From NCBI RefSeq assembly GCF_003841465.1, contig NZ_REFZ01000021.1, positions 1 to 50,022 of the forward strand: a DNA stretch of 50,022 nt, given 5' to 3'. The position numbers and the translations under genes were made by a program. The DNA is from Natrarchaeobius oligotrophus. Its GTDB lineage: Archaea; Halobacteriota; Halobacteria; Halobacteriales; Natrialbaceae. Under the pieces are notes generated by a model that searched no databases, was not told where the DNA came from, and saw only the letters and a list, made by a program, of their open reading frames with translations. Shown piece by piece: positions 11,932-24,182 of this stretch. Numbering within the stretch: the first letter of the stretch is position 1; each line of letters starts with the position of its first letter.

Positions 11932-11969
11932 GTTCCCGGGGAGGGCTCCGAACCACGGAAAGACTCACT
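11932..11969 (-). repeat. tRNA-Met-tail-derived direct repeat, right copy
   Basis: Partner of 9900-9937 (34 of 38 positions identical). Read on the minus strand it carries TTCGGAGCCCTCCCCGGGAA, nearly the T-arm and acceptor end of tRNA-Met(CAT) at 12086-12236. It is also the outermost member of the tail array described separately. Confidence 0.6.
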
Positions 11970-12085
11970 TCGTTCGTCTTTCCTGCCCTCACCTCGCTTC
12001 GCTCGGTGACGACCACCGGGTTCTCCGCCTCCCCGGGCATTTTGCAGCGTCGTCACTTACTTCGTTCGTGACTCCAGTGGCAAAA
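11957..12085 (-). repeat. tRNA-Met tail array with hairpins
   Basis: Immediately 3' of tRNA-Met on the minus strand. The 17 bases at 12080-12096, which include the tRNA 3' end, are repeated exactly in inverted orientation at 12029-12045. The loop between holds GTCAC/GTGAC arms at 12052-12056 and 12068-12072 around CTTCGTTC. Two more hairpins follow: CACC/GGTG arms around TCGCTTCGCTC (11990-12008), and GGAAAGAC/GTCTTTCC (11957-11964 with 11976-11983). A third tail copy at 11932 closes the array. Confidence 0.7.
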
Positions 12086-12236
12086 TGCCCGGGGAGGGCT
12101 CCGAACCCTCGATCTCCGCATGTCCCAGGTTCGAGGCTCGGCAGTCCTCGAGGGACACGGAGGCTTCCAAGGCGAAACCGCACCGAATCTCTGAACCCTA
12201 TGAGTGCGGCGCTATGTCCAGCTAAGCCACCCGGGC
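12086..12236 (-). tRNA. tRNA-Met(CAT), elongator type, with 77-nt intron
   Basis: Read on the minus strand from 12236. The acceptor stem GCCCGGG pairs with CCCGGGC, with discriminator A at 12086. The D arm follows, and the anticodon stem CCGCA pairs with TGCGG. The loop CTCATA carries anticodon CAT. The T arm is GAGGG-TTCGGAG-CCCTC. An intron of about 77 nt interrupts the anticodon loop after position 37, the canonical archaeal bulge-helix-bulge site; mature length is 74 nt. Haloarchaeal elongator tRNA-Met is known to carry such an intron. Initiator tRNA and CAT-anticodon tRNA-Ile usually lack it. A TATA-like AAGCTTAAAG lies about 30 nt upstream. Confidence 0.93.
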
Positions 12237-23000: not shown

Positions 23001-23116
23001 GCGTATCGGAGGTGCCGTGGTGTCTACCCGCGTGCTGCAACCGATTCGAAACCTTCAATTACGGTGGCGGGCTACCACCGAGTGCACACAACGTGGCGCC
23101 GCGCCGCGAGCCAGGC

Positions 23117-23191
23117 GGGTTGGTGGTCTAGTCTGGTTATGACACCTCCTTGACATGGAGGAGGCCGGCAGTTCAAATCTGCCCCAACCCA
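23117..23191 (+). tRNA. tRNA-Val(GAC)
   Basis: A full cloverleaf without intron, 75 nt. Acceptor GGGTTGG pairs with CCAACCC, with discriminator A at 23191. The D arm is GTC/GAC. The anticodon stem is CCTCC/GGAGG with loop TTGACAT (anticodon GAC). The T arm is GGCAG-TTCAAAT-CTGCC. The 3' CCA is not encoded. It is followed at once by the tail array. Confidence 0.96.
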
Positions 23192-23480
23192 TTTCTGACG
23201 GAACAAATCGACGAGCGGAGCGAGTCGTCGTTCCGTCAGAAATTGGGACGGGAAGATTTTGAACCCAGGAAGTCGCAGCTCGCACAGCGAGCGAAGCGAG
23301 CGAGCAAGAACGTCTTCCGTTGGTTCAAATCTGCCCCAACCCACTCGTTCTGTCACGAACAAACCCGTGAGCGACGGGATCGTGACGTTGAGCAGATTTG
23401 AACCAGACGAGTCGCAGCCCGGGAAGCGAACGAAGTGAGCGACCCGGAACGTCTCGGCGAGGTTCAGATCTGTCATCCGC
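23192..23480 (+). repeat. tRNA-Val tail array with alternating orientation and hairpins
   Basis: Directly after tRNA-Val. Hairpin 1 has 13-bp perfect arms (23192-23204 with 23230-23242) and an inner CGACGA/TCGTCG stem around GCGGAGCGAG. An inverted, degenerate tRNA tail follows at 23246-23268, then a linker with GAGCGAAGCGAG, then a direct tail identical over GTTCAAATCTGCCCCAACCCA, less the last stem differences, at 23325-23345. Hairpin 2 has GTCACGA/TCGTGAC arms with an inner CCCGT/ACGGG, followed by an inverted tail (23393-23408). Hairpin 3 has CCCGG arms around GCGAACGAAGTGAGCG, and a weak direct tail lies at 23460-23475. Confidence 0.75.
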
Positions 23481-24182
23481 CTACTTTTGCTGCGACAGCA
23501 AACTCGCGACGTTACGCAGTTTGAACGAGACCGAGTTTCCGCGCCGAAGGCCCAGATTCTCGAGCGGAGTGCAATCTGGCTCACCTCATCTTCGACGGAA
23601 CACACTCGAAGAGCGCAGCGCCTCGAGTTGACCGTCCGTCGAATCACGGAAGACACCGGGAGACGATCGAGCTTCCTCGAGTCGCGGTCGACGATTCGCG
23701 GACCGGTTGACGTCCGGATCGATCGCCCGATCCGCGTTTCATCCGGACTCGATTTCGACACGGCAAACGACGCCGCTTTCCGAGAAAAACCATCACGCAT
23801 CCAAAAACACTGTCCGAAACTGTGATTTACTGGCGAATCGTCGCAACCGTTCAGTATCGTGGGTGGCGTACGTCTCTTTACTATGCGTGGTACTAACAAG
23901 CATAGTTCTGCCGGGATACCGGTCGGGAGCACCCCCGTCTCGCCCTACGCGACGTGGGACGACCACCGGCGGGCGATCCGCCGAGCGTCGGACGAGGCTC
24001 GAGCGGCGCGTCGGTCCGCGAGGGAACCGCTCCCGTAACGCGCTTTTTTCGCGAACGACGCCGATCCGTGACGATCCGGCACGCCTCGACCGCCTCGACC
24101 CGTCGGTGAACGGCCTCGAGTGGCGTCGTCGCGACCGCGCGGAAACCGAACGGTAAAACCTCCGAGTCGACTCGAGGTGGGT
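23481..24182. other. Long intergenic region after the tRNA-Val array
   Basis: About 700 bases with no convincing conserved gene. The first 330 bases look like degenerated spacer. A 51-codon frame at 23883-24038 is listed separately with low confidence. The last 100 bases belong to the transporter promoter region. Confidence 0.5.
23883..24038 (+). CDS. Possible small basic protein
   Basis: A 51-residue frame from ATG to TAA with SPYATWDDHRRAIRRASDEA, an amphipathic, Arg-rich helix. The sequence turns from AT-mixed to strongly GC-biased at this frame, and a weak TATA-like TTTACTAT overlaps the start. I recognise no family. It may equally be chance. Confidence 0.25.
   Translation: MRGTNKHSSAGIPVGSTPVSPYATWDDHRRAIRRASDEARAARRSAREPLP

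Follow-up and report, generated by a model that had tools for sequence, protein, structure and literature searches.

A structured repeat array behind a haloarchaeal tRNA-Val gene, tentatively read as an RNA element of the 3′ trailer

The tRNA-Val(GAC) gene of the window (the whole stretch of DNA analysed, 50,022 nucleotides) is followed by an array in which the 3′ end of the tRNA recurs between hairpins. This array is one case of a haloarchaea-wide structured repeat family behind tRNA genes, and we tentatively propose, with slightly less than even confidence, that the repeats are a candidate RNA in the 3′ trailer. The conserved structured element follows roughly half of the tRNA genes censused in haloarchaea, occurs class-wide, and is nameless in both Rfam and open-access papers. 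Acting as RNA, it would represent an extra layer in archaeal tRNA biogenesis; acting as DNA, it would represent a cassette system with tRNA genes as its base. In either case it is a possible source of tRNA-like debris and of spurious ORFs ('RFEP...') near haloarchaeal tRNA genes, and tail copies found near these genes should not be taken for integrase scars.

Two arrays in the window and the anatomy of a unit

The tRNA-Val(GAC) gene occupies positions 23117-23191 on the forward strand (ARAGORN; Rfam RF00005, 64.7 bits), and its final 21 nt, GTTCAAATCTGCCCCAACCCA (23171-23191, +), running from G53 to the discriminator N73, form the repeated tail of an array that extends to 23475. The first unit begins with hairpin A (TTTCTGACGGAAC...GTTCCGTCAGAAA, inner GACGAGCGGAGCGAGTCGTC; 23192-23242, +; inverted repeat I1 and fold), followed at about 23246-23266 (−) by an inverted T-arm copy, GATTTTGAACCC, recognised as an inverted repeat and from its sequence, which carries one inserted T and prolongs an 83% inverted repeat between 23175-23204 and 23230-23259. 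Hairpin B with its T-loop flanks (GGAAGTCGCAG...GAGCGAAGCGAG...AACGTCTTCC) spans 23253-23334 (+; covariance model R1, 82.7 bits, E 6e-18) and leads into a direct tail copy at 23323-23343 (+) that is identical to the tRNA at 21/21 positions by sequence match. The second unit repeats this order with hairpin A at 23344-23390 (+; CTCGTTCTGTCACGAACAAACCCGTGAGC...GTGACGTTGAG; sequence and fold), an inverted T-arm copy, GCAGATTTGAACCA, at 23392-23405 (−) that is complementary to 23321-23334 at 14/14 positions, hairpin B with its T-loop flanks at 23392-23473 (+; R1, 91 bits, E 6e-20), and a weak direct tail copy, GGTTCAGATCTGTCA, at about 23461-23475 (+; sequence and direct repeat D1). When the downstream 300 nt were dinucleotide-shuffled 2000 times, the best direct match was at most 15/21 (observed 21/21) and the best inverted match at most 12/14 (observed 13/14); the 364-nt stretch folds with a z-score of -7.55. 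The succession of inverted, direct, inverted and weak direct tails with hairpins between them, as described in the sequence-only reading, is therefore real. Long spurious ORFs (RFEPTEDVLARSLRS...) run antisense to tail arrays, for example at 23072-23932 (−) in the window, and may get annotated as proteins.

A second array, missed by the sequence-only reading, lies behind an intron-containing tRNA-Met(CAT) gene at 12086-12236 (−; tail 12086-12107), which was recovered by ARAGORN with introns and by RF00005 (43.2 bits) and is not called by the default tRNA scan. Its order of tail, hairpin, inverted tail, hairpins and direct copy reproduces the layout at tRNA-Val, with the inverted copy at 12018-12039 (+) being nearly full-length (acceptor part 12/12) and the direct copy at 11933-11954 (−) matching at 21/22 positions. 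That palindromes alternate behind both of the window's tRNAs, and that the inverted tail at tRNA-Met is nearly full-length, is what would be expected of a selfish or passive palindrome of the REP/BIME or IS605/PATE type, in which hairpin B spreads and lodges behind tRNAs without a host function, and alternation arises when GNA hairpins prompt fold-back or template switching. We consider this explanation improbable, since fold-back predicts full-length inverted copies, whereas in the edge profile of units at large the inverted copy matches no better than chance over its acceptor part.

Units run from hairpin A through an inverted T-arm piece and the conserved hairpin B to a cognate tail copy (G53-N73), and across 79 of them the median period is 126 nt (5-95% range 100-172). 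According to the edge profile, the direct copy is ~95% identical from G53 to N73 and near chance beyond both borders, and the inverted copy matches at about positions 53-65 only, that is, the T-loop and the 3′ strand of the T-stem. This inverted piece (at least 9/12 identical) occurs in 61 of the 79 units, where 5.5 would be expected. Together with hairpin B and the T-arm half of the copy, it makes up a single long imperfect hairpin that is selected on the tRNA-sense strand; hairpin A varies in sequence and has moderate structure (mean z -2.1, 79 units). A T-run often begins directly 3′ of the tRNA. The GAGCGNAGCGAG word by itself is a poor marker, as only part of its 35 genome matches are near tRNAs. 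CCA follows none of the 79 tail copies, which argues against the mature tRNA as donor and led us to reject retro-copying from it; the tRNA genes themselves do not encode CCA either.

Tail copies and hairpin B across the haloarchaea

To determine how common tail copies are, we censused three haloarchaeal genomes, namely the window's own (G000), one of the same genus (G003) and one of another family (G021). In G000, 25/44 tRNA genes have their own last 21 nt recurring within 700 nt downstream (at least 15/21 identical), and 0/44 have such a copy upstream. With a 600-nt limit, own-tail copies are found behind 23/44 (G000), 22/43 (G003) and 22/38 (G021) tRNAs. The match is cognate: when the query is restricted to the 12 nt at the 3′ end (acceptor, at least 11/12), tRNAs match their own tail in 19/44, 18/43 and 19/38 cases, and the tails of other tRNAs used as query match in 0.3%, 0.3% and 1.2%, respectively. 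Units also occur behind two G000 tRNAs outside the Rfam census, a tRNA-Pro (L097) and the tRNA-Met of the window. By eye, A57 tRNAs (GTTCAAATC) of G000 bear units more often than G57 tRNAs (GTTCGAATC), at roughly 19/29 versus 4/15. Some genomes such as G028 carry tail copies without a recognisable hairpin B, which counts against reading the units as a trailer element.

Direct tail copies downstream of tRNAs resemble attR sites and could thus be decayed scars of integrative elements (proviruses or plasmids) that used tRNA 3′ ends. We regard this as very improbable. Two control genomes of the same phylum, called methanogens from kinship only, have own-tail copies at 0/14 and 1/16 tRNAs, the sole match being a tandem second tRNA-Gly gene; methanogens are likewise targets of such elements and yet essentially lack such copies. 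Scars are also difficult to reconcile with the uniform spacer of ~100-170 nt and with the same hairpins behind unrelated tRNAs in 189/194 genomes. Hairpin B has no match in 50,697 phage records, its exact pattern is absent from the scanned viral contigs, and its plasmid matches are confined to two large (mega)plasmids. The lack of phage and viral matches led us to reject a provirus or plasmid origin. The sequence-only reading had likewise held that these are not simple integrase scars, and we concur because the same alternation and hairpins follow many tRNAs across the class and keep to the tRNA strand. Rather than single, unrelated spacers, the related genomes carry units at about half of the censused tRNAs.

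The class-wide distribution was established with R1, a covariance model of hairpin B built from 31 copies, which detected the hairpin in 189 of 194 genomes of the class (62/65 genera). A phylum-wide draw of 197 genomes yielded 31 positives, all in the same order, and outside the class the model matched none of about 164 genomes. Among named records, hairpin B is present in, for example, Natrinema, Natronorubrum, Halorubrum, Haloarcula, Halobaculum, Halarchaeum, Halapricum, Halovivax and Halosimplex. The best loci sit 32-329 nt behind a same-strand tRNA in 28/30 cases, and these tRNAs are diverse (Val, Phe, Ser, Glu, Gly, Arg, Ile, Lys). Of the matches in G000, essentially all 30 follow tRNAs; one exception is a displaced Gly-type unit beside what, by eye, looks like the start of an IS1595-like transposase. 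Only 24/38 exact matches in the named set are behind a detected tRNA, because Halorubrum has hairpin B inside another, dispersed repeat. This occurrence in larger non-tRNA repeats favours the selfish palindrome, which nevertheless would struggle to account for tRNA-type-specific conservation, covariation, fixed orientation and cognate copies without selection. The Halorubrum repeat (L253, L254, L257, L262, L280, L281, L284, L285) is ~350 nt long, begins after TTTATAAA, contains GAGGCTGGGGAGG...GTGGGACTCAAAGGGGCAGCC...GGCTGGGGCTTTGGAGGTGTTC around the hairpin B core, and is possibly an unrecognised structured RNA or a mobile repeat.

Hairpin B also bears the marks of a conserved fold. In a MAFFT alignment of 58 copies, which was not structure-fitted, 92.9% of cells are paired. 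Both-side changes affect 14 pairs and 143 cells compared with 48.6 +/- 7.4 after shuffling, and the covariation score is 0.324 compared with 0.03-0.09, and never more than 0.088, for slid structures; kinship inflates such counts, and the slid control retains relatedness. Pairing reaches 99.4% in the lower stem (18-24/64-70), where CG/GC/UA and GC/AU/CG exchanges occur. The tRNA-sense strand is the better folder in 117/160 copies (p 4e-11), and G-U wobbles outnumber A-C mismatches by 48 to 21. However, the strand preference holds with DNA energy parameters too, and RNA is therefore not proven. The commonest loop is a C-G closed GNA triloop (89/160), a type of outstanding stability in DNA, while tetraloops are the usual preference of RNA; this predominance counts against the RNA reading. 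By eye, hairpin B fits neither bulge-helix-bulge splicing nor a kink-turn. No curated Rfam 15 family corresponds to hairpin B or to the unit, tRNA alone scoring above the cut-off.

Inheritance and turnover of the arrays

Units behind the same tRNA type are highly similar between two congeneric species (Ser-CGA 96-97%, Asp 93%, Leu-CAG 90%), and Tyr units are 94% identical over 71 nt between two families. The strong similarity among units is mainly vertical and tRNA-type-specific. A divergent trpD-like gene adjoins tRNA-Val(GAC) in the window, and homologous trpD/tRNA-Val(GAC) loci in many genera carry zero, one or two tail copies that track lineage changes of the acceptor (CCCCAACCC, CCCGAACCC, CCCAAACCC).

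Some arrays consist of alternating blocks. The array behind tRNA-Tyr in G021 is of the form ABAB (units 1/3 97% and units 2/4 95% identical), as is one behind tRNA-Gly (L043), and an ABA array follows Ser-CGA in G000. Such block duplications are as expected for unequal recombination between tails, and the pattern indicates that arrays grow and shrink by whole units via recombination between identical tail copies. At orthologous loci, units are precisely present or absent: tRNA-Glu(CTC) has one 104-nt unit in G003 and none in G000, with orthologous flanks on both sides (85%), and tRNA-Tyr has a unit in G000 and none in G003, where the flank directly continues from the tail (79% over 78 nt). Val-CAC of G000 and Val-GAC of G003, two genes with identical tails, are followed by units that match at 91% over 114 nt. 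Mean tail-copy identity for units 1, 2, 3 and 4 is 20.0, 19.4, 20.6 and 21.0 of 21.

Several of these observations would suit a tiny non-autonomous integrative cassette for which the T-loop-to-3′-end part of the tRNA is the attachment block. A single-stranded recombination site, loosely attC-like, would result from folding of the inverted T-arm with hairpin B and the T-loop, and a host tyrosine recombinase would insert, remove and homogenise units in trans. Three tRNA integration regions have been described (PMC8371274), and the G53-N73 block is the duplication expected from integration at the T-loop or the 3′ end. Exact unit gain and loss between tails, the exchange between the two Val genes with the same tail, the nearly perfect distal copies, orphan tail-flanked units without a tRNA, and a bulged hairpin with DNA-stable GNA loops point in the same direction. 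So do the proximal and distal tails of tRNA-Glu(CTC) in G003, which derive from two alleles, the distal copy differing in allele from the gene itself. As proof of integrase action this locus is ambiguous, because the whole tRNA body is of the other allele and both flanks are orthologous, so that allele replacement with a fossil tail explains it equally well. We nonetheless hold the cassette, the main rival of the RNA reading, to be less probable than that reading. The unit contains no integrase and none was linked to it, units are mostly inherited with the tRNA type, ordinary recombination suffices for ABAB arrays, and the searches gave 0 matches in the phage records, no exact pattern in viral contigs and matches in only two large plasmids. 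The attC core GTTRRRY is likewise unmatched (GTTCAAA), and it is the sense (GTT) strand that folds better, whereas integrons use the bottom strand.

The sequence-only reading had proposed that each step arose by fold-back or by retro-type copying primed from the tRNA end, with decay increasing with distance. The decay is apparent at the tRNA-Val locus and only weakly so in general, as the unit means given above indicate. As an ongoing process, either kind of copying is unsupported given this weak decay, the absence of CCA and inheritance by tRNA type, and it is further disfavoured by block duplication and the truncated inverted piece. The unit is instead ancient, modular and inherited with its tRNA type. 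Fold-back could still describe the remote origin of the first unit and is unneeded for present-day arrays.

Other repeats and one tRNA cluster occur besides these arrays. Two genomes (L177, L251) have orphan Val-type units that are flanked by tails, lack a tRNA gene and resemble each other in upstream sequence. Six tRNA-Glu(CTC) loci (L235, L238, L239, L248, L249, L250) lack a unit and bear several copies of another repeat of ~75 nt, which reads CCCGACGCCNTCTNGCGATT...GGGCAATNA. tRNA-Arg(GCG) (L031, L032, L036, L089) is followed by another conserved element with inverted and direct acceptor pieces, CGTCCTGACG...CTCCGTCAGGACG, which is common across families. At G021:C1:2635124-2637763 (L163), ~14 divergent tRNA genes form a cluster that lacks hairpin units and looks like a tRNA array carried by a virus or plasmid.

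A proposed trailer RNA and its comparison with known systems

We infer that what folds is RNA, in the form of the pre-tRNA's 3′ trailer, and consider RNA more likely than single-stranded DNA in this role. An RNA trailer element is our first choice because of the strand preference, the wobble excess, the fixed orientation and the tRNA-specific conservation. Hairpin B, capped by the T-arm/acceptor-like copy, may act in 3′ processing, termination or stability of the pre-tRNA, or the unit may alternatively be released as a stable RNA, comparable to the E. coli tyrT repeats. Transcription could, however, stop at the T-run right after the tRNA, before the units, and an RNA role alone leaves the cognate-acceptor match of the copy unexplained. 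On folding whole units, the 5′ acceptor pairs with the distal tail in 43/53 arrays. Shuffled hairpins A and B give the same result (p 0.94), so the hairpins are not designed for alternative acceptor pairing, and we rejected an alternative-tRNA switch. A broader proposal, which we hold more loosely than the trailer element, is that of a genome-wide haloarchaeal system in which many tRNA genes possess their own array of structured cassettes with a copy of the gene's 3′ end, predating the family split and serving as a new class of tRNA-linked regulatory RNA or as a recombination system that recognises structure and has tRNA genes as platforms.

The tRNA-tail hairpin family is apparently undescribed: no description was found in open-access papers, and its novelty is provisional because the literature search covered these papers only. 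Among known systems, the attC sites of integrons, including archaeal integrons, end tandem units in a folded, bulged and imperfect hairpin that is recognised by structure, with exchange at a short shared core (PMC9668308). Hairpin B is similarly bulged, covarying and foldable as a single strand. However, its core is GTTCAAA/TTTGAAC rather than GTTRRRY/RYYYAAC in the alignment, and, unlike integron cassettes, the haloarchaeal units are without ORFs, have a strongly conserved internal motif and fold best on the opposite strand.

Tyrosine recombinases that target tRNAs fall into T-loop and 3′-end classes (PMC8371274). As in the elements that they mobilise, the haloarchaeal identity block runs from the T-loop to the 3′ end of the tRNA at both borders, and by spanning this region the duplicated block restores the tRNA. 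In contrast to such elements, the unit of 100-170 nt is too short for an integrase, is vertically inherited and accompanies half of the tRNAs, and no free, viral or plasmid form was found except for the two megaplasmids.

Short intergenic palindromes of alternating orientation are shared with REP/BIME and with PATEs, which are IS605-type elements (PMC3119063). Unlike REP/BIME, the haloarchaeal units are tied to tRNAs, contain cognate sequence, have an orientation fixed by the tRNA and are conserved class-wide. Nearly all matches in G000 are behind tRNAs, with dispersal only in some genera such as Halorubrum.

The nearest precedent is the tyrT locus of E. coli, although permissive Rfam scans gave no match to its stable RNA, rtT (RF00391). 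At that locus, 178-bp repeats that each include the last ~19 nt of tRNA-Tyr are transcribed and yield rtT. The haloarchaeal arrays are similar in that tandem units behind a tRNA carry its cognate 3′ end in direct orientation. However, whereas the tyrT repeats represent one locus in E. coli, the haloarchaeal units are found at about half of the tRNAs across an archaeal class, and they additionally possess an inverted T-arm and the conserved hairpin B.
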